In this document: positions 9,064 through 41,113 of the stretch, in pieces
How the letters are laid out: each line of letters starts with the position of its first letter
Numbering within the stretch: position 1 is the first letter of the stretch
Assembly: GCA_018240245.1 (NCBI GenBank)
Contig: JAFEGD010000079.1
Location: forward strand, 1 to 41,734
Direction of reading: 5' to 3'
DNA from: Spirochaetota bacterium
Lineage (GTDB): Bacteria > Spirochaetota > Leptospiria > Turneriellales > Turneriellaceae
Length of the DNA stretch: 41,734 nucleotides
Notes under the pieces: generated by a model
What the model was told of the DNA's origin: nothing
The model's database searches: none
Seen by the model: the letters and a program-made list of their open reading frames with translations, nothing else
Made by a program: the position numbers and the translations under genes

Positions 9064-9577
9064 GGTAGTCGCCCCCGATGCCGCGCGCTTCGAGTTTTGT
9101 TTTGAGTAAAGCCTTAGCTTGATTCATGCGCGACTTCACAGTACCGAGGTTAATCCGCATTGCGTGAGCAATGTCTTCATAGCTCAACTCTTCAAAATAA
9201 CGCATGAGAATAAGCGGTTTGTAATTAGCGCCGAGTTCATTCACTGCACTGATTAGATGCTCCGAAAGCTCTGAAAGTTCGATATTTTCGGAGCCCTGCG
9301 CGCGCGGATCGGCAATTTGGCTCGCCTGTTGCGCACTCGCTTCACCGGAAATTTCACGTTTCAGCCGTCGCGCGCTCTTGCGTTGCAAATCGTGGCAGTG
9401 ATTTATAAGAATGCGCACAACCCATGTGTATTCGCTCGCTTCGCTACGAAACTCGCTCGAATTTTTGCCCGCCTTAATGAGCGCCTCTTGCACCGCGTCT
9501 TCGGCGTCGGTCGTGTTCTTGAGTTGCGCCAGCGCGAGGCGAAAAAGACGTTCGCGGTAAGGCGTCAGGCGCGCCAT
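9056..9577 (-). CDS. ECF-type RNA polymerase sigma factor
   Basis: A protein of about 173 residues with the two conserved ECF regions: sigma region 2 (RERLFRLALAQL, DAEDAVQEALIKA) for core and -10 binding, and region 4 (LSYEDIAHAMRINLGTVKSR) for -35 recognition. The start at ATG 9577 gives the usual ECF length and begins just before region 2. The frame extends to 9742, but that would overlap the upstream gene by 100 bases; a GTG at 9631 is another option. It is followed by a single-pass membrane protein that probably restrains it and preceded by a small exported protein. Target promoters cannot be predicted. Confidence 0.9.
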   Translation of the reverse strand: MARLTPYRERLFRLALAQLKNTTDAEDAVQEALIKAGKNSSEFRSEASEYTWVVRILINHCHDLQRKSARRLKREISGEASAQQASQIADPRAQGSENIELSELSEHLISAVNELGANYKPLILMRYFEELSYEDIAHAMRINLGTVKSRMNQAKALLKTKLEARGIGGDYLG

Positions 9578-26960: not shown

Positions 26961-28952
26961 GTGCGGAGCGAAATTGCTATTCGTCTTGTTATTGCCATTT
27001 CGTTCGCTGTATTGCTGCATTGTCGCGGTTTTGATTGGCCTGTTGCGGCTAAAGATAGGGTGGCTGCGATCAATCCCACACTATTTTCGATTACCGCGAC
27101 GAGCCCCGCCGATGCTGCGGCCGGCGTCGCAACCAACACACTCATCGTTGTCGATTTTTCAGAGCCCGTCAGCTTTGCGGGCTTAACTTACAATGCCGCG
27201 AACGGGCCGTGTGCGACGAATAATTTGCAAGTCAGCGTCGATAGTTTTTCGAATTGCATTGCGTTGACGACGCCGACATGGAATGCGGCGAAGACGCAGT
27301 TGACGATGACGCCAGCGGTGGCACTCGCCAATTCGACGGCGTATCAAATTCGCGTGACGCCAACGCTCGCTGCGGCAAGCGGTCGAACGCTCGCCACGAA
27401 TTTTACGACACCGACAGGGTTCACGACCGCCGCCCCAGGAGTTCTCGTGCCCTCGATGAGTGCGCCGGTTGAGGGCGCAACTGGCGTCTCGATCTCAACG
27501 GGTCTCGTGGTGAATTTTACATACGCTGTAAATACGGGCACGCTTTCCTATAATAGCAGCAGCGGCGCATGCACCGGCAGTTTTCAATTCAGTGCCGATG
27601 GCTTCGCAACGTGCCTCGCTTTGGCCACGCCAGCTTGGACGGGCGGCAATACGACGCTCACGATAAATCCGAGCGTGCCGCTGAGTTACAACACGCACTA
27701 CCAAGTGCGCATCACGACCGCTCTCGTCGGCGCGAGCGCCGAGACGCTGAGCGCCACCTATACTTCGATGGGATTTACTTCGGCCCCGCCGCCGCCGCTC
27801 ACGGTTGCTTTAACGACGCCAGCCGATGGGGCGACGGCGGTGGTGACATCGACGTCATTTCTTCTTACTTTTAATTACGCAGTCAATATCTCCACAGTAA
27901 CTCACAATTCGACTGCCGGCGCATGCACAGGTTCGGTGCAAATTTCTCAAGATAATTTTTCGACGTGCATCTCGCTCAACACTCCGGGGTGGGCGGGCGG
28001 TAACACACAATTGACGCTGACGCCGTCGACGCCGTTAGCGCCGGGCGGCGTCTATCGCGTTAAGGTGACGACGGCCGTCGTGGGTGCCGTTGGTAATTTG
28101 CTCGCCACCGATTACACGACAGCGTCGGGTGTGGCAGCGCTCATCAATGCGCCGACGCCGCTACAAGTGTATACCGCAAATGCGCAAAATATGTTGATCT
28201 GGCCGCCGACTCCCGGTGCGGCGTCGTACAATCTTTATTTTAGTACAACCGCTGGAGTGACTACCGGTACGGGAACTTTAATCGCCAGCGTGAGCGCTCC
28301 GTATACGCACACGGGTCTCACAAACGGTACGACGTATTACTACATTGTTGCGGGTGTGAGCGGCGGTAACTTGGGTACGCCATCGGCGCAAGCGTCGGGA
28401 GCACCGATAGCAGCAAAGAAAATTTTCATCACAAGTTCGCTTTATACCGGCAATTTGGGTGGTGTTGCCGGTGCCGATTCGCAGTGTGCTGCGCGTGCCA
28501 GTTCGGCTTCGCTCGGCGGGCAATGGCGCGCGTACCTTTCGACCTCGACCGACGATGCGGTGTGTCGCGTACTTGGGGTTGCGGGTAAACTTTCGGCAAA
28601 TTGCGGATTACCCGTTGCTCCGAATTTGGCTGCGATGGGGCCATATGTTAACACAGCGGCAATAACGGTTGCCACGAGCTTACAATCTTTGCTTTCGAAT
28701 ACTCTCGCCGCTGCGGTTGGCTTTAACGAAACCGGCGCGAGTGCGAGCCTTGCCACACCGTTTACAGGCACCGCAAACGGCGTGCTATCGGGCCCTAATT
28801 GCAGCGATTGGACCGACGGTTCGGCGCTCAATAACGCGACAACCGGCAGCGCCAGTGCGACCAATGCGCAATGGAGTGCTAACGGCACGGGAATTTGCAG
28901 CGTACTTGTGACATTCGTAGCAATCTCCCCTATTTACTGCGTACAGTATTAA
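26961..28952 (+). CDS. Surface lipoprotein candidate with Ig-like repeats, FN3 domain and DUF1554
   Basis: A 663-residue exported protein. Residues 1-21 form a signal peptide ending LLHC, a possible permissive spirochaete lipobox (Cys21). Three Ig-like repeats of about 115 residues follow (each with a P-x-x-G-A-x-G-V opening, a C-T or C-A pair with a second Cys about 17 residues later, and TLTINPS- or TLTPS-type strands). A fibronectin type III-like domain spans about 395-480. The C-terminal 180 residues match DUF1554 (KKIFITSSLYTGNLGG, QCAARA, SDWTDG), a family best known from Leptospira. The GTG start has GAGGAAG upstream. Likely an adhesin or other cell-surface protein. Confidence 0.85.
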   Translation: MRSEIAIRLVIAISFAVLLHCRGFDWPVAAKDRVAAINPTLFSITATSPADAAAGVATNTLIVVDFSEPVSFAGLTYNAANGPCATNNLQVSVDSFSNCIALTTPTWNAAKTQLTMTPAVALANSTAYQIRVTPTLAAASGRTLATNFTTPTGFTTAAPGVLVPSMSAPVEGATGVSISTGLVVNFTYAVNTGTLSYNSSSGACTGSFQFSADGFATCLALATPAWTGGNTTLTINPSVPLSYNTHYQVRITTALVGASAETLSATYTSMGFTSAPPPPLTVALTTPADGATAVVTSTSFLLTFNYAVNISTVTHNSTAGACTGSVQISQDNFSTCISLNTPGWAGGNTQLTLTPSTPLAPGGVYRVKVTTAVVGAVGNLLATDYTTASGVAALINAPTPLQVYTANAQNMLIWPPTPGAASYNLYFSTTAGVTTGTGTLIASVSAPYTHTGLTNGTTYYYIVAGVSGGNLGTPSAQASGAPIAAKKIFITSSLYTGNLGGVAGADSQCAARASSASLGGQWRAYLSTSTDDAVCRVLGVAGKLSANCGLPVAPNLAAMGPYVNTAAITVATSLQSLLSNTLAAAVGFNETGASASLATPFTGTANGVLSGPNCSDWTDGSALNNATTGSASATNAQWSANGTGICSVLVTFVAISPIYCVQY

Positions 28953-29085: not shown

Positions 29086-31188
29086 ATGCAGAATGCGTTT
29101 ACTAATCCGCTCGTTGCTTTACACGAAGTGACGCTGTCGCTTCTGACACAAGAATCGAGCGCTAAACTTTTAGACGCACTCCTCGACCGAGCTGTCGAGT
29201 TCACCGGCGCCGATTCGGGTACGATTTCTATTCTCGACAATTCGCATAAATTTCTCGAAATCAAGGCGCAGCGAGGGTTTGCGCAAGACTTGCCAAAGAC
29301 CGTGCGTCTTAAAATTGGCGAGGGTGTCACTGGGCGCTGCATCGTCACGGGTAAATTGCGCAATGTGGGAGACACCTCGCAGGACAAATATTACATCGCG
29401 GTGCGGCAAGATATCCGTTCGGAGCTTGCGGTACCGCTCAAAGTAGGGAATAAAAACTTCGGCGTAATTTCTGTCGATTCAAAACGGCTCGATGCGTTCA
29501 ACGACGATCACGAAGAATATTTACAGATGCTCGCAGAATATGCGGGGCAGATATTTACAACGACGACTTCGGTCGAGTCCTTGAGCCACCGCACGCACTT
29601 GCAAGAGATACTGCTGCAAATAAGCGGTGTGCTCGGCAAATACGCCGATGTGAAACTCTTCTTTGAAGAAGTGATGCGCATTCTCGCCGAAAAGCTCGGG
29701 GTGAAGCGTGCGGCAATTTATCTCTACGACGCGGTTACCGAAGAACTCTCGGTCGCTGCGGCGCTCAACTACAGCAGCGAAGAAATCGAGCGGGGGCGCT
29801 ATGCGATCGGCGAAGGGGTTACGGGCAAAACCTTCAAGCAACGCAAGGCGATTGCAATCGCCAACGTTGCGCACGACGACCAATTCTTGAATAAGACAGG
29901 GCACCAGCGCGAAGACGAAGAGAGTACGAGTTTTTTTACGGCACCTTTTTTCGAGGGCGGCGACGCAGGTGCAGCCTCTGACGCGAGCACCGGCGGCGTC
30001 TTCACGATGGAGATACGTTTTCAATCGCAGAGCAAATTCGAAGACTACGCATTCTTAACGCAAATTTTATCGTCGCTTTTTGGGCAGGCGTTACAGATCG
30101 AAAAACTCGTGCGGCAAACATCGCACGAAGTTCAAGAAGAAAATATTATTCTGCGCCGCCAATTAGAAAGCACGTTCGAATTCGAGAATATCATCGGCAC
30201 GCATCCGCGTATGACCGAGCTTTTCGCGCGCATGAAGATGGCCGCCGATTCGGCGAGCTCGGTCTTAATCACCGGCGAATCGGGTACGGGAAAAGAACTC
30301 ATTGCGAGTGCTCTCCACCAGAATAGTCTGCGGTCGGCGAATGCGCTTGTGAAAATTAATTGTGCCGCGATACCGGCCGATCTTTTAGAGAGCGAACTCT
30401 TCGGCTATGCGCGCGGCGCATTCACCGGCGCCATCGACGATTACAAAGGTAAGGTCTTATCGGCGCACAAAGGTACGTTATTTCTCGACGAAATCGGCGA
30501 ACTCGATTTGAAATTGCAGGCGAAGCTCTTGCGCGTATTGCAAGAAAAAGAATTTTCCCCGTTGGGGAGTAACAAGGTTATCAAAGTCGACGTGCGCATT
30601 ATCGCTGCGACGAATACAAATCTCGAAAATGCGGTTAAAGAAAAAACGTTTCGTGAAGATCTTTTTTATCGCTTAAATGTCATACGCCTGGTTGTGCCGC
30701 CGCTGCGCGAACGGCTTTCCGATTTACCGATTCTTATTCGGCATTTGCTCGAGCGTGTCTGCGAGCGTAACGGCAAGAAAAAAGCGAGTCTGACCCCGGC
30801 GGCGTTCGGCAAATTGCAGATGTACTCGTTTCCCGGCAATATTCGCGAACTCGAAAATATTTTAGAACGTGCGGTTGTTCTCAATGCGAAAACCGAAGTC
30901 GACGCGGGGGATCTTCAACTGGGCGACGCGCCGATGCCATTGCCGCAGGGGGTAATCCACCCGGCAACGAATGTGGCATTCGAGCTCAAAGCTTATCTCA
31001 AAGACGCTATCGCGAAGACGCCGACAGGCACCGTTCTCGACGGCGTGATGGGCGGCGTCGAAAAAGAGCTAATTCGTATTATGCTAAACCAAAACCAGTT
31101 CAACAAGCGCAAGACCGCCGAAGCGCTGGGAATGAACCGCGTGACGCTCGACAAGAAGATTCAACAGTATAGTCTATTTGAAGTTTGA
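29086..31188 (+). CDS. GAF-domain sigma-54-dependent transcriptional activator
   Basis: A 700-residue regulator of the FhlA/NtrC type. GAF domains lie at about 15-155 and 170-345 and would bind a small ligand; no phosphoreceiver is present. The AAA+ domain (365-600) has Walker A GESGTGKE (about residue 396), the sigma-54 contact loop GAFTGA, Walker B TLFLDEIG and a full C-terminal subdomain. A Fis-type helix-turn-helix (NKRKTAEALGMNRVTL) ends the protein. It should remodel RNA polymerase-sigma-54 at target promoters. The ATG has no Shine-Dalgarno. It lies just upstream of the phosphatase/kinase cluster, which may be a target, though I see no -24/-12 box before 31272. Confidence 0.93.
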   Translation: MQNAFTNPLVALHEVTLSLLTQESSAKLLDALLDRAVEFTGADSGTISILDNSHKFLEIKAQRGFAQDLPKTVRLKIGEGVTGRCIVTGKLRNVGDTSQDKYYIAVRQDIRSELAVPLKVGNKNFGVISVDSKRLDAFNDDHEEYLQMLAEYAGQIFTTTTSVESLSHRTHLQEILLQISGVLGKYADVKLFFEEVMRILAEKLGVKRAAIYLYDAVTEELSVAAALNYSSEEIERGRYAIGEGVTGKTFKQRKAIAIANVAHDDQFLNKTGHQREDEESTSFFTAPFFEGGDAGAASDASTGGVFTMEIRFQSQSKFEDYAFLTQILSSLFGQALQIEKLVRQTSHEVQEENIILRRQLESTFEFENIIGTHPRMTELFARMKMAADSASSVLITGESGTGKELIASALHQNSLRSANALVKINCAAIPADLLESELFGYARGAFTGAIDDYKGKVLSAHKGTLFLDEIGELDLKLQAKLLRVLQEKEFSPLGSNKVIKVDVRIIAATNTNLENAVKEKTFREDLFYRLNVIRLVVPPLRERLSDLPILIRHLLERVCERNGKKKASLTPAAFGKLQMYSFPGNIRELENILERAVVLNAKTEVDAGDLQLGDAPMPLPQGVIHPATNVAFELKAYLKDAIAKTPTGTVLDGVMGGVEKELIRIMLNQNQFNKRKTAEALGMNRVTLDKKIQQYSLFEV

Positions 31189-31271: not shown

Positions 31272-32897
31272 ATGTTTCTGGATGCGGCACGCGCGCATAT
31301 CGAATCGAGCGAAAGTTCGGTTATACTCTTCACAGGCAATGTGCGCGATGTTTATGCAGCCGGTGCGCAGCGAGATTTCAAAACGCTCAGCGAACTCTTG
31401 CGTAGTGAAATCTTTTCGACATACGACGCAGTAGCCGAATATGACCCGCAAGGCGGTATTCAATTTGCCGACGCAAAGATGCGCGAAAGTTATTTTCGCT
31501 CGCTTTCGGGTTACGATGCGTACCATAAAACCAATTTTGCTCAGAATCCTCCGAAAGACCCGGTCGCTGCGTTTTCAATTCTCGATAATTTGGCGCGACT
31601 AAGTTTACTCGATAAAAAATCCTTTGCGGTTATCATTCACTATCTCGACCAGATTGTGCCGACGGGCCTCGCGAATAATCCCGAATTGCGCTTTCTGATT
31701 ATCGCGCTCGACAAATGGGCGCAAAATCCCGAGTTTCGGCGTAATAAGATTCGCTTCGTGTTGGTCGCGCCCGAAATTGCGCGCCTCGACAGCTTCATCG
31801 GCAAGAATGCGTTCATCGAACATGTTGCAATTCAACGACCCGACTTAGAAGAACGTACGGTCGCTTGCGGTAACGGTGCCATGGCAGAGCTGACGGCTGG
31901 CCTTACGAATCGACAAATTCTTGAAATCATCGCACAGGGCCAAACCGATGCGGTGGCGCTACGTGCGCTGAAAAAAGAATTGATTGGTAACGAGTGCCGT
32001 GGCCTCTTAGAAATTGTCGAGCCGCGCCACGCGCTCGCGGCGGTCGCCGGGCATGAAAAGGTTAAAGATATTCTGTCGCTCACCGCCGAAGCGATTAAAC
32101 AAGGGAAAACAAATTTCTTACCGATGGGTTTTCTCATTTGCGGCCCGGTGGGTACGGGTAAGACTTTTATTACCGAATGCTTTGCGCACGATGCGGCCTT
32201 ACCTGTGGTAAAATTTTTAAACTTTCGCTCGCAGTGGCAAGGCGAGACCGAAGCGAATCTCGAAAAAATTTTCAATATATTGAAGTCGATTTATCCGGTT
32301 GCGGTGATGATCGACGAGGCGGATGCATTTCTGGGAAACCGCGACGCACAGGGCGACAGCGGCGTCTCGATGCGTGTCTTCGCGTCGCTTGCCGCTCTCA
32401 TGAGCGACACTCAATATCGCGGAAAGATAATTTGGTTTCTTATGACATCCCGCCCCGACCTCTTGCCTGTCGATATGAAACGTCAGGGTCGCGCCGAAGA
32501 GCATCTTGCGCTTTTTCATCCGCAAGACACGGTTGAACTCGAAGCGCTTTACCAGAGCGTGTGTAAAAAATTGAAAATTGCGCCGCCGGTTGCCGAACTT
32601 TCGCCGCTTCTCGACAAAGGTCGCGCATATTCGGGCGCCGACATCGAGGCGATGCTCACGCGCGCCGCGCTTGCAGCCGAAGTGCGGCATGGCGCGGCAC
32701 TTTCCGCAGAAATCATGCGCGAGACAATCGCGAATTTTCGCAGCCCCGAATATCCGCTTGCGATCGAATTGCAGACGCTCGCGGCGGTGCGCGAATGTAC
32801 GCACCAAAATATGGTGCCCGAAAAATACCGCATGCTCAAAGCCGCAGACATCGAGGCGCGCATCAACGAGCTCTTAGGAATCTTGCGACAACGATGA
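31272..32897 (+). CDS. AAA+ ATPase of the Ycf46/FtsH-like group
   Basis: A 541-residue protein. Residues 1-250 form an N-terminal domain of unknown function that begins FLDAARAHIESSESSVILF and resembles the partly degenerate first half of Ycf46-type ATPases. Residues 255-440 are an AAA+ module with Walker A GPVGTGKT, Walker B VAVMIDEAD, a sensor-like LMTSRPDLLPVDMKRQGRAEEH and an arginine-rich second region. The C-terminal helical lid follows. No protease motif is present. It is first in a gene cluster and shares an ATGA overlap with the following phosphatase gene, so it may remodel or control the signalling proteins encoded downstream. Confidence 0.8.
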   Translation: MFLDAARAHIESSESSVILFTGNVRDVYAAGAQRDFKTLSELLRSEIFSTYDAVAEYDPQGGIQFADAKMRESYFRSLSGYDAYHKTNFAQNPPKDPVAAFSILDNLARLSLLDKKSFAVIIHYLDQIVPTGLANNPELRFLIIALDKWAQNPEFRRNKIRFVLVAPEIARLDSFIGKNAFIEHVAIQRPDLEERTVACGNGAMAELTAGLTNRQILEIIAQGQTDAVALRALKKELIGNECRGLLEIVEPRHALAAVAGHEKVKDILSLTAEAIKQGKTNFLPMGFLICGPVGTGKTFITECFAHDAALPVVKFLNFRSQWQGETEANLEKIFNILKSIYPVAVMIDEADAFLGNRDAQGDSGVSMRVFASLAALMSDTQYRGKIIWFLMTSRPDLLPVDMKRQGRAEEHLALFHPQDTVELEALYQSVCKKLKIAPPVAELSPLLDKGRAYSGADIEAMLTRAALAAEVRHGAALSAEIMRETIANFRSPEYPLAIELQTLAAVRECTHQNMVPEKYRMLKAADIEARINELLGILRQR

Positions 32898-34993
32898 CGC
32901 GCGCAGTCACATCGTTCTACGCTCGCCTAACGCGCTTATGGACGGCGCTCGTTGGTTTTTACGCGGGGCCGCTGTTGCATATTTTTTTGACGAGCGTAAT
33001 CATGACGGCCGGTTTTGCGTATGGCTATACGCGCGGGCGACTATCGCACTTGCATCCGAAACTCATCGACGCGCTAGTCGCCGCGCTCGTAATCGTTTCG
33101 CTTATAGAGCTATATTTGTGCGATGGATTCTATCGCTTGCGTATTCGTTCGTTTCGTCCGCGTGTGCGTTTTATCAACAGCATGTTTGTTGACGGTAAGC
33201 TGCGCTTTGATCGCTCGATCGGGCATTATAAGCGGCTCTTACAGTATCTCACTGTCTTTGGTCGCCGTCGCATGTATATGGGGCCGTTGCACATTGCGAT
33301 TGTATTGTGCATCGTTGCTCTTTACGACTACTGGTATATGCGCACCGGCGAGTTTTGGACTTACTTACAAGCGGCAGCGATTGCGTTGCCGATTCACATG
33401 CAGTTTCTCTACGTCACGGGCGATCTTCACATGGGCAAATATCGCTCCCTCGTTAAGCGCCAGCTTTTTTTCTTCGGCTACGAGCCGCCCAACCAATATG
33501 CGGTTTCGCTCAAGTTCAAATTTTTAAGCATCATGTTTGTGACGGCGCTCAGCGATTATATTTTGGTCTCGCTCTTTCGTTCCGATATGGCGCAGACCGC
33601 GTCGGGCTATTGGTATATCGTGGGATTTTCCTTGTTTTCGCTTGCGCTCTTGATGCTGTTGACGATACTCTATTTTTCGACGATTTTTATGTCGATTAAA
33701 GAGTTACAGCTTGCGGCAGAAAGTTTGCAGCACGGTTACGATCCCGATTTTTATTCGCGCACTTCGGATCGCGAACTTGCGACGTTATCGAGCGGCTTTT
33801 TTCAGGCCGCGCAAAAAGTGCTCAATTATCGCCGCGATCTCGAACAGCAAATTCGCGAGGCGACGAAACACTTGAGCGCCGCGAACGAAGAGTTGAAGCA
33901 AAAGGACCACGAAATTCAAACCGAACTCGACTTTGCTGCAGAGATTCAGAAAGAAATGATTCCGCTGAAGCATGCGCCGTGGCATGCGATCGAGTTTGGT
34001 ATTGTCTATCAACCGATGCACAAGGTTTCGGGCGATTTTCTAAATATTTATCGTAAAGGAAAAGAACTCTTCGTGTTACTCGCCGACGTATCGGGCCACG
34101 GCGTGCCGGCGGCGCTCATCACGATGGCTGCAAACGAGGCGTTTGCGACGGCGATTCGCAATGCCGATGCGCCCGCCGAAATTTTCAGAACGGTTAACAC
34201 GCAACTCAGCGAGCAAATTAAGACGCAAGATTACCTCACGGCGTTTCTTGTGCGCATCGACGAAAAATTGCGCATCACGTACGCCAATGCGTCGCACCAG
34301 AAGGCTCTCCACTATCGGCGCAGCCGCAACACTATCGAAGCGTACGACACGGGCGGATTATTTATCGGCGCGATGAGCGATGCGACGACATCGTACGAAG
34401 AAAAAACAGCGAGCTTGCAATACGGCGATGCGCTTGTGCTTTTCACCGACGGTATTACCGAACAGATTAACGATGCCGGTGAGGAGTTCGGACACACGCG
34501 CTTGCATGAATTATTGCTAGAATTTCGCGATTTATCCGCGCAAGATTTGGCCGACAAAATTTTTGACGTACTCATGCGCTTTAGAGGACAGGCAAAAATT
34601 CGCGACGATATTTCTATGCTTGTTCTCACGGTACACCCGCAGTATAAAAAATTTATCGAACTATTTAACGAGACTGTACAAAAAATGAAATCGCGCATGG
34701 TCTCCGAATCGTCGCATCTACTCGAAGAGCTTTGGCGTCTTTACCCGAGCTTTCCCGCGTTGCCGTTGCTTTCGGCGCGCATCTATTATCAGCTCGGCGA
34801 ATTTGCCATCGCCGAGAAGCATGCAAAACTACAACTCGAACGCTTTCCGAACGACGTGCGTGCGACGCAGATTCTAGCGGCGATTGCTTTGAAAGCGGGA
34901 AATCGCACGCGCGCGACAAATTTGGTAAATCGTCTCGCCAAGAACAACGTCGACGACCGCGTCACGCGCCACTTGAAGGATAAACTACAGTGA
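32894..34993 (+). CDS. Membrane PP2C (SpoIIE/RsbU-type) phosphatase with TPR-like tail
   Basis: A 699-residue protein. Six hydrophobic segments span about 20-270, a short linker and coiled coil (about 280-350) follow, then a PP2C phosphatase domain (about 355-590) with SGDFLNIY, LADVSGHGVPAAL, LFTDGITEQ and RDDISMLVLTV, so the Mg/Mn-binding aspartates are kept. The last 90 residues form paired helices resembling TPR repeats. It should dephosphorylate a serine/threonine-phosphorylated partner, typically an anti-sigma antagonist, in response to a membrane signal. The start is the ATG overlapping the ATPase stop (ATGA); its stop overlaps the next start (GTGA). Confidence 0.88.
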   Translation: MTRAVTSFYARLTRLWTALVGFYAGPLLHIFLTSVIMTAGFAYGYTRGRLSHLHPKLIDALVAALVIVSLIELYLCDGFYRLRIRSFRPRVRFINSMFVDGKLRFDRSIGHYKRLLQYLTVFGRRRMYMGPLHIAIVLCIVALYDYWYMRTGEFWTYLQAAAIALPIHMQFLYVTGDLHMGKYRSLVKRQLFFFGYEPPNQYAVSLKFKFLSIMFVTALSDYILVSLFRSDMAQTASGYWYIVGFSLFSLALLMLLTILYFSTIFMSIKELQLAAESLQHGYDPDFYSRTSDRELATLSSGFFQAAQKVLNYRRDLEQQIREATKHLSAANEELKQKDHEIQTELDFAAEIQKEMIPLKHAPWHAIEFGIVYQPMHKVSGDFLNIYRKGKELFVLLADVSGHGVPAALITMAANEAFATAIRNADAPAEIFRTVNTQLSEQIKTQDYLTAFLVRIDEKLRITYANASHQKALHYRRSRNTIEAYDTGGLFIGAMSDATTSYEEKTASLQYGDALVLFTDGITEQINDAGEEFGHTRLHELLLEFRDLSAQDLADKIFDVLMRFRGQAKIRDDISMLVLTVHPQYKKFIELFNETVQKMKSRMVSESSHLLEELWRLYPSFPALPLLSARIYYQLGEFAIAEKHAKLQLERFPNDVRATQILAAIALKAGNRTRATNLVNRLAKNNVDDRVTRHLKDKLQ

Positions 34994-37900
34994 CCCGGCG
35001 CGCGCTCGTTTCGATCAGTTTTGTATTTATCGTATTTACCGGTTGTGCGCGGCGATCTGTCCCGCTCAATATCGTCAACGGGCATGCCGACTTGTCGGGC
35101 GTCGATTTGACGCAGGCGGTTTTAGAATTGAACGGCGATTGGGAGTACTATCCAGGGCAGATTATCAATCCCGAAGAGATGCAGCGTTATACTGATAAAA
35201 AAAAATTTGTTCATGTTCCGGGCAGCTTTAACCGCTATGGAAATCCACAGCTGGCGCTCCCTGCCGCCGCGAGCGCCACATACCGACTCACTCTGGTTTT
35301 GCCGGCGCGGGTGCTGCCCTATACGTTTCGCATACCCCCCCCGGCGACCGCATCGGCGGTCTTCATCAACGGCAATCGCGAGCTGACGAATGGGGTTGTT
35401 TCTGAAAATCTGAGCGAGGTGCGCGAGCGCACACCGATGCGCTATTTGCACCTGCCGTTGGCGGGCAAAACAGAGATCGTTATCCAAACGAACAATGTAA
35501 TTGCGCCCAATGGCGGTATCTGGCTACCCATTAGTCTCGGTAGCGCGCAGTCGATCGATAGTTTTCGCTTCATCGCGGTTATCCTCGATGTATTTGTCAT
35601 TGTCGGGCTTTTGACGTTCGGCGTTTACCATCTGCTCCTTTTTTCGATGCGGCTGCCCGAAGCCTCTTCGATCTATTACGCGCTTGTGTGTTTTGCCGTC
35701 GCCATTGGGCGCCTTTTTGCCGGCGAAATGATCGGTGGCGACATCTTGCCGTCGCTATCGTGGTCGATGGGGCAGCATATTGCACTCGTCGCCGATTTTT
35801 TACATACGTGTTTTTTCGTACTTTACTTGCGGAGCTTCTTCGGCGATCGGAGTTTGGGGCGTATCATGCTATTCGTCGCTGCGGTTTCCGGGCTGTTTGC
35901 CGCTGCTGTGATTGTCTTGCCCGGGACTTTATGGATAAATCTCCACAAGTATTTTAGAATTTTCACATTACTTATTTCTCCGGTTGGTTTCTATTTTTTT
36001 GCGCGCCTTGCGGTGCGCGGTGTCTTTGGCTCGCGTATTATTCTTGTCGGTCTTTTTGTAATTTTTGCGGCGTTCGTGAACGATACATTAAGAACAGCGG
36101 AGATTATCCAGACGCCGCCGATATATCCGTTTGGGATTTTAGGTTTTACTTTTATGCAAGCGGTATTGACTTCTAAGAAATCGGTTTTAATTTCCCGCGA
36201 GAACGCCAATCTTTCACAGCGGTTAATCCGCGCTGAGAAGCAGCGCGACGAGTTTTTGACGCAAGGCTCGAACGAGCTCAGAACACCCGTGCAGGCAATG
36301 GTGCAGACTCTCGAAAATTTGCGCCGGGGTGCAAGCGGGGCGGTGAGCGAACAGGTGCAGAAAGGTTTAGGCGTCATCGAAGAGAACGGTAGGCGCTTGC
36401 TCTATCTCATCGACGACTTAACCGATTCGGTTCATATTCGACAAAATACTTTGCAACTTAATTTTGCGAACGTATCGCTCAAGAAAGTCGTGGCACCGGT
36501 TCTTAAACTCTCGCTCGGCTTGTCAGAGAAGAACGATATTGTCATAATCGATGAAGTTCCCGACGGTCTCGACGATGTGCACGTCGATCCCGATCGTTTG
36601 CAGCAAATTATTTTAAGTCTGATTAGCACCGCGATACGGTATGCGCATTCGCCGACGATTAACGTTCGTGTCGGCTCGAACGGCGGCTTTTTGACGCTCG
36701 GTGTGCTATACCACGGCGCCGAACCCGACCACCGTCATACTTCGACTTGGTTAGGCGACGACGATGCGGCGGCGATGGTCGTAACGCGCAAACTCGCAAA
36801 ATTGATGGGCGGGCACTATTATTACCACAAGCATTCGGAGTCGCAGCATACGCTCGGCATTGCATTGCCGTACAACCACCCAGAATTGGTCGATGAGATT
36901 TTGCGACGTGGTAGACAACATACCGAATACCGCGCGACGGGCGAGAAGTCGACTTTTGCCTTTGCGACAAAGACGACCGATTTTGCACGCGGCGCGGGTA
37001 CACGAATCTTAATAGTCAGCGAACACGCGAGCCAAATTAAGCTTTTGCAAGAACAGCTTGTTTCGCTCGATCGTGCCGCGCTCATCGCTAAGAACGCGGC
37101 AGAAACTCTTATCGCACTCGAAAAACACGACGACATCGCGCTCATTATCGCCGACGTGCTATTGCCCGATATATCGGGAGTCGAACTAGCGATCAATATT
37201 CGCGCGCATTACGACATCGGAATTTTACCGATCATTTTAATCATCGATAATAACCAGATCGGCATTACGGCGAGTGCTTTTTCTGCGGGGGTGAACGATA
37301 TTATCCGCCGCCCGTTCGAAAAAGTTGAAGTGTTGGCGCGCGTCAAAAATGTGCTGCTCCAGCGTGAAGCGAGTTTGGCGCGCGAAAATTATCGCGCGCT
37401 AAATCGCGAACTCGAAATCGCGCGCAGTATTCACGAATCGATATTGCCGATCGTGCAACCGAAAAACGATCTCTATAAAATCGAAGCCGTGTGTCTGCCT
37501 GCGCGCAGCATCGGCGGCGACTTCTACGATTTTATCGAAGACGAGACTTCGATTGCGGTGATCATCGCGGACGTTGCCGGGCACGGTATTCCTGCGGCGC
37601 TCTATGCATCGATGCTCAAAATTGCATTTCATAATTTACGCGCTCAGGCGCGCTTTCCCGAGAGGCTGCTGAAAGAACTTAACGATCTCATGATTGATCG
37701 CAGCGAGCGTACGTTTATTAGTTGCGCATACACGCTGGTGGATTTCAAAAACAAACGCTTATTGCACGCGAACGCAGGGCATTTACCGCTTTTACTGCAA
37801 GAGGCGAATGCAAAGGCCGTCAAAAAAATTCAACCACCGGGGGGGGTCTTGGGCGTAAGAAAAGAGGCTGCCGTGACAGTAGAGATGCTGCATTTGCAAC

Positions 37901-38115
37901 CTAAAACGCGCTTAACGCTTTTTACCGACGGTGTGATCGAACTCATGAACCGCAAAGGCGAGTTCTTTGAAGAAGAACGCCTTATTGCAATTTTAGAAGA
38001 AATGCGCTCGGCGTCGATCGCCGAACTCAAAGAACGCTTGCTCGCAGAAATGCGCGCATTTTCCGAAGGTGAAAATTTTCTCGACGACGTGACGTTTGTA
38101 ATTCTCGACGTTTGA
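34990..38115 (+). CDS. 7TMR-DISM sensor with degenerate kinase and receiver and an intact PP2C phosphatase
   Basis: A 1041-residue lipoprotein-type sensor. Signal peptide with lipobox FTGC (Cys19), a DISM extracellular beta domain (about 30-185), seven membrane helices (about 190-390), then a HisKA-like helix pair in which the phospho-accepting histidine is asparagine (SNELRTP, Asn428). The ATPase-like domain lacks the N-box asparagine (STAIR, Thr547) and glycine boxes. The receiver domain (about 665-790) keeps the phospho-acceptor Asp722 but lacks the double acid, the Thr/Ser and the conserved Lys (RRPFE). The C-terminal PP2C domain (about 830-1041) is intact (GGDFYDF, ADVAGHGIPAAL, LFTDGVIE, DDVTF). 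Signals probably pass by conformation, not phosphorelay. It uses a GTG start. Confidence 0.9.
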   Translation: MTRRALVSISFVFIVFTGCARRSVPLNIVNGHADLSGVDLTQAVLELNGDWEYYPGQIINPEEMQRYTDKKKFVHVPGSFNRYGNPQLALPAAASATYRLTLVLPARVLPYTFRIPPPATASAVFINGNRELTNGVVSENLSEVRERTPMRYLHLPLAGKTEIVIQTNNVIAPNGGIWLPISLGSAQSIDSFRFIAVILDVFVIVGLLTFGVYHLLLFSMRLPEASSIYYALVCFAVAIGRLFAGEMIGGDILPSLSWSMGQHIALVADFLHTCFFVLYLRSFFGDRSLGRIMLFVAAVSGLFAAAVIVLPGTLWINLHKYFRIFTLLISPVGFYFFARLAVRGVFGSRIILVGLFVIFAAFVNDTLRTAEIIQTPPIYPFGILGFTFMQAVLTSKKSVLISRENANLSQRLIRAEKQRDEFLTQGSNELRTPVQAMVQTLENLRRGASGAVSEQVQKGLGVIEENGRRLLYLIDDLTDSVHIRQNTLQLNFANVSLKKVVAPVLKLSLGLSEKNDIVIIDEVPDGLDDVHVDPDRLQQIILSLISTAIRYAHSPTINVRVGSNGGFLTLGVLYHGAEPDHRHTSTWLGDDDAAAMVVTRKLAKLMGGHYYYHKHSESQHTLGIALPYNHPELVDEILRRGRQHTEYRATGEKSTFAFATKTTDFARGAGTRILIVSEHASQIKLLQEQLVSLDRAALIAKNAAETLIALEKHDDIALIIADVLLPDISGVELAINIRAHYDIGILPIILIIDNNQIGITASAFSAGVNDIIRRPFEKVEVLARVKNVLLQREASLARENYRALNRELEIARSIHESILPIVQPKNDLYKIEAVCLPARSIGGDFYDFIEDETSIAVIIADVAGHGIPAALYASMLKIAFHNLRAQARFPERLLKELNDLMIDRSERTFISCAYTLVDFKNKRLLHANAGHLPLLLQEANAKAVKKIQPPGGVLGVRKEAAVTVEMLHLQPKTRLTLFTDGVIELMNRKGEFFEEERLIAILEEMRSASIAELKERLLAEMRAFSEGENFLDDVTFVILDV

Positions 38116-38128
38116 GACCGAAAATACC

Positions 38129-39106
38129 ATGTCCGCAAAAATAGTCGTCTTCGAGCCCGACGGTATTTACCGCACTATTATTGAAAATATTCTTCTCAAG
38201 AACGGCTATGCGCCATATTTTGTCGATTCGTCGGCCGAATGCAAGGTTGTCGCCGACGAGGTGCGCCCCGATGTCTTACTTCTCGACGTCGCGGCGGCGC
38301 GCCCGCACGATTTTCGCCTATTGAGCGATCTCAAGGTGCTGAGCAATGCGCCGATTATTTTAACGACCGAAGAAAATGTCGACGACTATATGCCCGCGCT
38401 CGGCAGCAAAAACGTGACGATTGTGCTGCCCAAGCCGATCAAAGGCGCAGAGCTCGCACGTGTTTTAGAAAACTTGCTCACGGTCGATTCGCGCGTCTGG
38501 TTCGGTATCCATAATTATATTCCCGATTTGCGCAAGTTGCGTAAGGTGAAAATCAAACGCTCGACGCAAGTGCGCACGTGCATTAAGACGATGCTGAGCG
38601 AGATGCACGCATGGGGTTTCAATTTCAGCCACGAAACGGAGATGGATTTAGTTTGGCAAGAAATCCTCATTAACGCAGTTTATCACGCGCACGGCTATAC
38701 CGAAGAAAAAAAACAGCGTGTCTCGATTGAACTGCCCGACCCCTATATCGTCGAAGTGACATACGGCGCGAGCGAGCATGCGTTTGGTATCGCGGTGCGC
38801 GACTTTATGGGATCGTTAACGCCCGAGATGATTATCGCCGCGCTCAGGCAGGCGGTCGACCAACAAAAAATGATCCTCAAGGCCGCAGAAACGGGAGAAG
38901 ATATTTCGCAAGATCTGCTCGACCGCGGGCGTGGACTCGATTTGATTCGCCAACTTTCGGGAGAATATTATTTCATCATTGACCCCGGCAACTCGACCGA
39001 AGTTATTATCATCTATGATCGGTATTACGAGAAAGACGATGCCGTCGGCTCTCTTAAAATTTTCGATCTTTCTTACCATTTGCGCAGCGCCAGCACACCC
39101 CGATAA
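38129..39106 (+). CDS. Receiver-HATPase fusion, RsbW-like kinase candidate
   Basis: A 325-residue cytoplasmic protein. Residues 1-120 are a receiver domain with phospho-acceptor aspartate (LLLDVA), Thr (ILTTEE) and Lys (LPKP) in place, but with only part of the acidic pair (FEPD). Residues 150-310 are a GHKL ATPase of the HATPase_c_2 type: N-box EILINAVYHAHGY, G1-like VRDFMGSL, G2 DRGRGLDLIRQLSG. There is no HisKA helix, so it is like anti-sigma kinases such as RsbW/SpoIIAB and not a histidine kinase. The natural guess is a serine kinase opposing the two PP2C phosphatases upstream. Start: ATG 13 bases after the preceding stop. Confidence 0.82.
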   Translation: MSAKIVVFEPDGIYRTIIENILLKNGYAPYFVDSSAECKVVADEVRPDVLLLDVAAARPHDFRLLSDLKVLSNAPIILTTEENVDDYMPALGSKNVTIVLPKPIKGAELARVLENLLTVDSRVWFGIHNYIPDLRKLRKVKIKRSTQVRTCIKTMLSEMHAWGFNFSHETEMDLVWQEILINAVYHAHGYTEEKKQRVSIELPDPYIVEVTYGASEHAFGIAVRDFMGSLTPEMIIAALRQAVDQQKMILKAAETGEDISQDLLDRGRGLDLIRQLSGEYYFIIDPGNSTEVIIIYDRYYEKDDAVGSLKIFDLSYHLRSASTPR

Positions 39107-39401
39107 GGCCGGAGCGTCGGCTGCCGGTAAGGCGCCGATCGAGGTAACGTTTGTCGGGATGCGCGACGAGAGCGTTGCAGAGAGTTGCCTTGTTACGGTA
39201 AATCGTCGGCGCAAGCGCGCACTTGCGTTGGCGCAAAAGGGCGACGGCGAATACCAAATCGTGATCGAAAAAAAACGCCCGGGCTATCAAGTGCGCGTCG
39301 AACGCATGGGTATGGCGCTGGCGACGGCGCGCGCGCTGCACGATTATGAAATTTGCATTGCTGCGGCGACAGTCGCACGCGATGCGATTGCCGACGAGTA
39401 A
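39039..39401 (+). CDS. Small exported protein overlapping the kinase gene end
   Basis: A protein of about 120 residues. The start is placed at the ATG at 39039 because it gives a signal peptide (MPSALLKFSIFLTICAAPA) and has GAGAAAG upstream; the gene overlaps the receiver-HATPase gene by 68 bases in another frame. The frame is open further upstream without a leader-like sequence. The mature part is basic, with two cysteines (ESCLVTV, YEICIAA) that could form a disulfide. No known family is recognised. It closes the signalling cluster and may be a periplasmic partner or simply a passenger. Confidence 0.5.
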   Translation: MPSALLKFSIFLTICAAPAHPDKAGASAAGKAPIEVTFVGMRDESVAESCLVTVNRRRKRALALAQKGDGEYQIVIEKKRPGYQVRVERMGMALATARALHDYEICIAAATVARDAIADE

Positions 39402-39470: not shown

Positions 39471-40490
39471 ATGGATTATAAATCCGCCGGTGTCGACACC
39501 GCGTACGCGCAGACGCTGATTCAAAACCTAAAAACAAAGATTACCGCAACACATAAAGTACCTGGTGTGGGCGAAATTGGCGGCGCTTACGGCGGTTTTG
39601 CGGGTCGTTTTATTGCGATGCAAATTCCCGGTTTCGACGTTGTCGCGACAACCGACGGCGTCGGTACCAAAACGCAACTTCTGCGCCGGTTCGATTATCT
39701 CGAAGGTATCGGGCAAGATCTTGTCGCGATGTGCGTGAACGATCTCTACTGCTCGGGCGCGACGCCGGCTTTTTTTCTCGACTATATTGCGTGCGGCAAG
39801 CTCGACGAAAAATGGTATAACCGCGTGCTCGCGAGCATCGCCGATGCGTGTGCAGCGACGCCGATGGCGCTCATGGGCGGAGAAACCGCCGAACACCCGG
39901 GCGTCATGCCCGACGACGATTTCGATCTTGCCGGTTTTGCGGTGGGCTTCATACCGAAAGAGCGTAAGCTACCGCAATTCGACGCGCAGAAAGAAAACGA
40001 TTTTGTGATCGGTGTCGCATCTTCGGGTTTGCATTCCAACGGATTTTCTTTGGTCCGTAAAATTTTTGCCGAAATCGAAAAAAATAGTCGCAGCGAATTC
40101 GAGAAGTTAATTGCAGATCGAAAAGAATTTGTCTCCGCCTGGCTAAATCCCACGCGCATCTACCGCGAAGTGCCGCAACTCATCGCCAAAGCCGACATCA
40201 AAGGTATCGCGCATATCACGGGCGGCGGCATTCACGAAAATTTGCCGCGCGTTTTGAAACCGGGTCTCGGCGCGGTGATCGAGAACGCCGAACCTTTTCG
40301 CTTGAAGGCTGCGCCGCTGCTCGAAAAATATGTACCGCGCGAAAAACTTTTTCATACGTTTAATATGGGTACCGGGCTGATTCTCATCGCCGCCGCATCG
40401 GAGCTGCCGGGCATTCGCAGCGTTTACCCCGAAGCGGCGATAATAGGCCGCTTGCAGGCGGGCAGCGGCGTGCAATTGCAAACCAATTGA
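39471..40490 (+). CDS. purM: Phosphoribosylformylglycinamidine cyclo-ligase
   Basis: A 339-residue PurM, the fifth step of purine synthesis: ATP-dependent ring closure of FGAM to aminoimidazole ribonucleotide. Family motifs are clear: MDYKSAGVD at the start, GGFAGRF, TTDGVGTK, MCVNDLYCSGA, GGETAEHPG, GVASSGLHSNG and HITGGGIHENLPRVL. The start has no Shine-Dalgarno but fits a leaderless promoter. No other pur gene is adjacent. Confidence 0.97.
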   Translation: MDYKSAGVDTAYAQTLIQNLKTKITATHKVPGVGEIGGAYGGFAGRFIAMQIPGFDVVATTDGVGTKTQLLRRFDYLEGIGQDLVAMCVNDLYCSGATPAFFLDYIACGKLDEKWYNRVLASIADACAATPMALMGGETAEHPGVMPDDDFDLAGFAVGFIPKERKLPQFDAQKENDFVIGVASSGLHSNGFSLVRKIFAEIEKNSRSEFEKLIADRKEFVSAWLNPTRIYREVPQLIAKADIKGIAHITGGGIHENLPRVLKPGLGAVIENAEPFRLKAAPLLEKYVPREKLFHTFNMGTGLILIAAASELPGIRSVYPEAAIIGRLQAGSGVQLQTN

Positions 40491-40522
40491 CGCGGATACT
40501 CCACCCCCGAAAACTTCGCAGC

Positions 40523-41113
40523 ATGATGCGAATTTTGTGGTGTACTCTTTGCGCGCTCGGCGGTATCGTTATTATCGCGTGTGGCCCCAAGCAAATCGAC
40601 GATAAGAATTATTTGACGTTTGCGGGACAAGCGATGCAAGATATTCTACCGCCGATGATGCAGACTTTGAAAGAGCACGTCGACAAAGACGGCTTTGCGA
40701 ATGCGGTGAAATTTTGTTCGACGTTTGCCGGCGAATATGGTCGGGGTAAAAACGCGGAGTGGTCTAAAAAGGCGCAGGCGGATTTCGGCATCAAAGTCTT
40801 CCGCTTTCGCCGAATTTCAGATCGCAATCGAAATCCGCAAAACGCGCCCGACATGAAGCAGGCAGAAATTCTGACCGCATGGCGCGCCAATGGTGCGAAG
40901 CCTACTCTCTATCGAGACGGTGCGCGTTTAATAACTTTGCACCCGATCAAAATTCCGATGGAGATGTGCTTAGGCTGTCATGGCGATAGCGAACATCTCG
41001 ATAAAAGTGCGGCGGTCGAAATTGCGAAATTATACCCGCACGATCGCGCGACGGGCTACAAGCTCGGTGAATTACGCGGCGCGTTTGTGACCGAAGCGAC
41101 GCTCGGGCAATAG
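40523..41113 (+). CDS. Tll0287-like (DUF3365) haem-binding lipoprotein
   Basis: A protein of about 196 residues. The N-terminus (MMRILWCTLCALGGIVIIAC) is a lipoprotein signal with lipobox IIAC. The mature part has the DUF3365/Tll0287-like layout with a c-type haem motif CLGCH (Cys149, Cys152, His153) and an upstream region with KFCS and RRISDRNRNPQN typical of the family. It is probably a periplasmic redox or ligand sensor holding one haem. The start is uncertain: the frame opens with TTG 40487, which overlaps the purM stop, and ATGs at 40523 and 40526 give a more usual signal peptide. It ends directly against the stop of the converging gene. Confidence 0.8.
   Translation: MMRILWCTLCALGGIVIIACGPKQIDDKNYLTFAGQAMQDILPPMMQTLKEHVDKDGFANAVKFCSTFAGEYGRGKNAEWSKKAQADFGIKVFRFRRISDRNRNPQNAPDMKQAEILTAWRANGAKPTLYRDGARLITLHPIKIPMEMCLGCHGDSEHLDKSAAVEIAKLYPHDRATGYKLGELRGAFVTEATLGQ

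Follow-up and report, generated by a model that had tools for sequence, protein, structure and literature searches.

A receiver-RsbW-type protein and two membrane PP2C phosphatases in two adjoining spirochaete gene modules: candidate halves of a partner-switching pathway

The window analysed here is a stretch of 41,734 nucleotides from an uncultured relative of Leptospira in the Turneriellaceae (Spirochaetota; GenBank assembly GCA_018240245.1, contig JAFEGD010000079.1, positions 1 to 41,734); it corresponds to contig C220 in a fragmented assembly of 3.3 Mb (G000). An earlier note on this DNA had singled out five genes at positions 31272-39401, encoding an AAA ATPase (AAA), two PP2C phosphatases (PP2C_A and PP2C_B), a protein in which a receiver is fused to an RsbW-family HATPase_c_2 domain (RRHK) and a small protein (SEC), and had regarded them as parts of a partner-switching pathway in a possibly new arrangement. 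The cluster is real and the partner-switching reading is plausible, but the five genes make up two modules with different histories, AAA-PP2C and RRHK-SEC, which adjoin only in some relatives. That the two modules supply a pathway of the partner-switching type, in which RRHK and both membrane-bound phosphatases would share a STAS substrate encoded elsewhere, we consider an even call. The family of receiver-gated kinases to which RRHK would belong appears to be a more interesting unit than the five-gene set.

The evidence for two modules comes from a comparison of 31 neighbourhoods, nearly all from relatives. The first module, AAA-PP2C_A-PP2C_B (31272-38115), was kept in all six same-genus relatives, and the second, RRHK-SEC (38129-39401), in all family members examined as well as in one genome of another family (G015). 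RRHK-SEC was also retained in genomes in which AAA was not found (G008, G011, G012 and G015). The full five-gene order occurred in only three of the seven genomes of the genus, namely the window, G006 and G001 (the last read across contigs L153 and L152), which rules out the five genes as one conserved operon; the gene order pointed out in the earlier note is thus conserved within each module, beyond what chance would give, and not as a unit. In G003 and G005 the modules shared a strand, but an interval of about 6 kb held two FKBP genes, DUF1318, ZapA, one hypothetical gene, MlaC and MlaA, plus the gene for a sigma-54 activator (EBP), while in G002 and G004 EBP directly preceded RRHK (as a fragment in G004) and AAA-PP2C_A-PP2C_B was on another contig. 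EBP is a variable neighbour, found upstream of AAA in the window and upstream of RRHK in G002, G003, G004 (the fragment) and G005; it is widespread across the class at other loci, and no ortholog was found in G006. In a small RRHK tree with mixed support values the three contiguous genomes did not group together, so that contiguity of the modules may go back to an early stage of the genus.

RRHK (38129-39106, plus strand) scored 30.8 bits to HATPase_c_2, over the Pfam cut-off of 27.4 bits, and its receiver scored 29.8 bits to Response_reg, just under the cut-off of 30.2 bits, with the Asp, Thr and Lys present. A profile search of 393 Spirochaetota genomes recovered full-length relatives in 58, nearly all of which have only one copy. 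E178, N182, D225, G228, L230 and G267-R268-G269 were invariant in all 58 aligned proteins; the N-box Glu is the catalytic-base position in SpoIIAB. The receiver Asp, Thr and Lys were kept in 13 of 13 members from the family of the window. Across the phylum, the position equivalent to D53 of the window was Glu in 31 of the 58 homologs (loci L263-L302), among them most of the Spirochaetales members, and Gln in the five homologs of family f12, and at no point did the ATP-site residues vary. These features mark RRHK as a probable member of the RsbW-family ATPases whose receiver is predicted to be phosphorylatable, and its relatives supply naturally varied receiver states (Asp, Glu, Gln, Asn and Ser). 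The same genome holds a second protein with a receiver and HATPase_c_2 (L321:1992-2948, G000:C41), which has a more canonical RsbW-like score (62.7 bits).

The two phosphatases both carry the motifs GDF, ADxxGHG, DGxxE and DD[IV][ST], indicating that their active sites are intact, and both have membrane sensor parts. PP2C_A (32894-34993, plus strand; SpoIIE 142.6 bits, TPR_19 26.3 bits) consists of a multi-spanning membrane domain, a SpoIIE-type PP2C domain with all metal-binding Asp motifs (GDF/ADVSGHG/DGITE/DDIS) and a TPR-like C-terminus. PP2C_B (34990-38115, plus strand; SpoIIE 151.7 bits) has a lipoprotein-like N-terminus followed by 7TMR-DISM, a HisKA/HATPase_c/receiver core (all Pfam matches) and the SpoIIE PP2C domain. 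This core, which the earlier note did not mention, was ruled out as a working hybrid histidine kinase: in the alignment the phospho-acceptor His is replaced by Asn in the window and by Gln in G005, the G1 and G2 boxes are missing from every ortholog, and the receiver is without the conserved Thr and Lys. Since a PP2C_B relative in f12 has 7TMR-DISM joined to PP2C without any HisKA/HATPase/receiver core, direct conformational coupling seems the likelier route by which the signal passes in PP2C_B.

With profiles built from this genome we searched the RRHK loci for STAS, SpoIIE, HATPase and sigma neighbours. A distant homolog in G059 (L171) stands in a row with a receiver-PP2C gene and a STAS gene, which is the canonical PP2C-STAS-kinase order and the one natural example of it in the RRHK family. 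Four f12 loci have a 7TMR-DISM SpoIIE gene that shares the strand of RRHK and lies 1.5-1.9 kb upstream; the intervening genes are on the opposite strand. At the remaining loci RRHK has no such neighbour, and a divergent gene that lacks any Pfam match often adjoins it. This conserved gene, encoding about 245 residues (for example L282:5838-6575), adjoins RRHK in 24 of 55 loci, in families f23, f31 and f35. The earlier note's assignment of partner-switching parts is thus borne out by the PP2C sites, the ATP-site residues, the G059 order and the f12 phosphatases near the kinase.

As far as can be judged from sequence, the likeliest reading is that RRHK is a STAS kinase gated by its receiver and that the two membrane PP2Cs oppose it; the PP2Cs and the adjoining RRHK are probably opposing halves of a partner-switching pathway. 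RRHK would phosphorylate a serine of the STAS protein, and a separate histidine kinase would phosphorylate the RRHK receiver and so set its kinase activity or binding. PP2C_A and PP2C_B would remove the STAS phosphate in response to outside signals; in PP2C_B the dead kinase/receiver linker would presumably pass the signal on by a change of conformation, without phosphotransfer. Such a scheme would tie spirochaete two-component signalling to partner switching.

The STAS partner would be encoded elsewhere in the genome, which has 18 STAS, 16 HATPase_c_2, 20 SpoIIE and 16 sigma-70 region 2 matches, including a canonical PP2C-RsbW-STAS trio on C134. Because the 18 STAS matches are scattered over the contigs, the lack of a nearby STAS gene, which the earlier note had counted towards a possibly new arrangement, is ordinary. 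The best candidate is a 111-residue protein (G000:C109:9228-9563), which scored 84.8 bits to the G059 STAS protein compared to 46.3 bits for the next of the 18. Its ortholog was present in 42 of 43 genomes with RRHK and in 23 of 30 without it (Fisher p=0.007, uncorrected for phylogeny); exclusive co-occurrence was rejected, as the association is one-sided only and confounded by phylogeny. The ortholog occurs phylum-wide, and in 28 of 30 loci (L303:2729-4419, L324-L352) the next gene is a DUF4398/LysM lipoprotein-like one. This evidence is suggestive only, and it provides one testable substrate candidate out of 18 for this family of receiver-RsbW (REC-RsbW) fusions. A wider proposal, which we put forward tentatively and hold to be rather doubtful, is that receiver-fused RsbW kinases are phylum-wide in spirochaetes and act on the STAS protein of this STAS-LysM lipoprotein operon, the receiver being frozen in most lineages (Glu in 31, Gln in 5) and switchable in the Leptospira-like lineage, where the overlapping small envelope gene would have been added. 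On another contig of the same genome, genes for an ECF-type sigma factor, a weak zf-HC2 (anti-sigma-like) match and a STAS protein stand in a row on one strand (L305:385-2152, G000:C27).

Several observations weigh against a receiver-gated kinase paired with these phosphatases. The G1 box of RRHK reads DxxGxL instead of DxGxG and the profile of its ATPase domain matched no SpoIIAB or RsbW structure, and because of this we can only infer that RRHK is a kinase. A linked STAS gene was found in only one of the 58 RRHK loci (G059) and none near RRHK in the window; the earlier note's suggestion of looking for linked STAS or sigma genes in relatives thus yielded one positive case and 57 loci without STAS, and at none of the scanned loci was there a sigma gene close to RRHK. 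The nearest sigma match within the window is about 28 kb from RRHK (9365-9562). The C109 STAS ortholog is also common where RRHK is missing (the 23 of 30 genomes above). Moreover, RRHK is present in many genomes without the AAA-PP2C module, so the PP2Cs may serve another switch, and outside the genus AAA had no PP2C or STAS neighbours (78 loci).

These points bear on three other explanations. According to the first, which is possible if somewhat unlikely, the modules are chance neighbours that are functionally independent, the PP2Cs serving another partner-switch kinase and RRHK using a phosphatase encoded elsewhere. The separation of the modules in G003 and G005, the occurrence of RRHK without AAA in G008, G011, G012, G015 and G017, and the other pairings permitted by the 20 SpoIIE and 16 HATPase_c_2 matches would all be expected from independence. 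However, even when separated in G003 and G005 the modules stay on one strand some 6 kb from each other, they directly adjoin in the window and again in G001 and G006, and PP2C_B-like genes are found near RRHK in another family as well.

Alternatively, RRHK might be a receiver-controlled binding protein and no kinase, sequestering a sigma factor or another regulator, with the PP2Cs unrelated to its output. The non-canonical G1 box and the Glu (31 genomes) or Gln (five) at the receiver Asp, suggestive of fixed states, fit this proposal, as does the report that the organism of TciR, a protein of the same architecture, is without an RsbV homolog (PMC12826045). We nevertheless judge it unlikely, given that all 58 proteins keep the N-box Glu and Asn as well as the G2 residues and that a STAS gene lies within the G059 order. 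A true five-gene pathway, in which the AAA ATPase disassembles a STAS-kinase or STAS-target complex and all five products act together, is very improbable despite the tight translational coupling of AAA, PP2C_A and PP2C_B in the genus and the three contiguous genomes, since AAA is absent from many RRHK-bearing genomes and its family is without PP2C or STAS neighbours across Spirochaetota, Myxococcota and Balneolales; the single new pathway suggested in the earlier note is therefore unsupported.

The REC-RsbW fusion architecture is already known from TciR of Vogesella indigofera (PMC12826045). The fusion of receiver and RsbW-like domain that the earlier note pointed out is thus of a kind already described. 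TciR, like RRHK, has an N-terminal receiver and a C-terminal RsbW-like domain; its authors counted 100 such proteins in a broad distribution, 5 of them spirochaetal, described TciR as the first to be functionally characterised, and stated that REC-RsbW fusions have no known biochemical target (PMC12826045). TciR is the one member studied genetically, and a role as a receiver-controlled binding protein has been proposed for it. Its partner histidine kinase, TciK, is encoded beside it, whereas RRHK has no adjoining intact histidine kinase, the only kinase-like neighbour being the degenerate core inside PP2C_B, and the 3' end of the RRHK gene is, unlike that of TciR, overlapped by the small ORF (open reading frame) of SEC. 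The locus resembles RsbU/RsbV/RsbW and SpoIIA in having PP2Cs and a predicted RsbW-family ATPase that keeps the N- and G2-box residues; it differs from them in that no STAS or sigma gene lies in the cluster, the kinase has a receiver, both phosphatases are large membrane proteins, and an AAA gene is present. Receiver-controlled kinase and phosphatase activities acting on a STAS protein are found in SypE/SypA of Vibrio fischeri and PA3346/PA3347 of Pseudomonas aeruginosa (PMC12826045, PMC8256260), but in SypE and PA3346 both are on one response regulator, while here they would be on separate genes. With regard to SiaABCD, SiaA was the nearest curated family for PP2C_A (138.8 bits), far below the cut-off of 700, so that PP2C_A is no equivalog; no SiaC match was obtained in the genome, in a search in which the control genomes were silent too.

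The AAA gene (31272-32897, plus strand; Pfam AAA 74.7 bits) encodes a protein with intact Walker A and B motifs and arginine-finger region in the alignment. Its AlphaFold2 model (AF2; pLDDT 78) gave full-length Foldseek alignments to tandem-AAA Cdc48/p97 chains at a low overall TM score of about 0.3-0.46, which suggests that the N-terminal half may be a degenerate AAA-like repeat. The nearest named matches came from metagenome-assembled genomes labelled Leptospiraceae or Spirochaetota, and the family extends to Myxococcota and Balneolales. A general role in partner switching was rejected on the basis of the 78 loci mentioned above; within this genus AAA has probably been drawn into the phosphatase operon as an accessory ATPase with a remodelling role. 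The protein may resemble Ycf46, a likeness on which a literature search gave nothing useful. In G006 a gene divergent from AAA (L160:3450-4190) has a sub-threshold HATPase_c_2 match (21.5 bits).

SEC (39039-39401, plus strand; 120 residues) matched nothing in Pfam or NCBIfam, and its structure model (pLDDT 42) was unreliable and left unused. It is retained at the family loci and also in G015, and its in-frame start lies inside RRHK in 13 of 13 relatives measured, several of which have an available start exactly 68 nt before the RRHK end. Of its description as exported, the short hydrophobic N-terminus holds, but no 19-residue segment exceeded the Kyte-Doolittle threshold. SEC is a putative small protein of the envelope that is probably expressed together with the kinase.

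ORF calls confirmed the order of the five genes on the plus strand and the overlaps reported for them, and Pfam backed the AAA, PP2C and receiver-HATPase assignments (the last with Response_reg just below threshold, as given above). AAA and PP2C_A overlap by ATGA if the ATG at 32894 is used (the longest PP2C_A ORF opens at 32795), PP2C_A and PP2C_B overlap by GTGA with GTG as the PP2C_B start codon, a 13-nt gap separates PP2C_B from RRHK, and RRHK and SEC overlap by exactly 68 nt from the ATG at 39039. Promoter and terminator scans gave results close to shuffle expectation and were given no weight. The EBP gene (29086-31188, plus strand; Sigma54_activat 234.8 bits, two GAF domains and HTH_8, in the order GAF-GAF-AAA-HTH), likewise not mentioned in the earlier note, ends 83 nt upstream of AAA. 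Upstream of EBP, positions 26961-28952 encode a product in which three Big_5 domains occur together with a DUF1554 domain and an fn3 match. Downstream of an AIR synthase-related (purM-like) gene, positions 40487-41113 hold a lipoprotein-like gene whose product has a Tll0287-like domain (63.9 bits).

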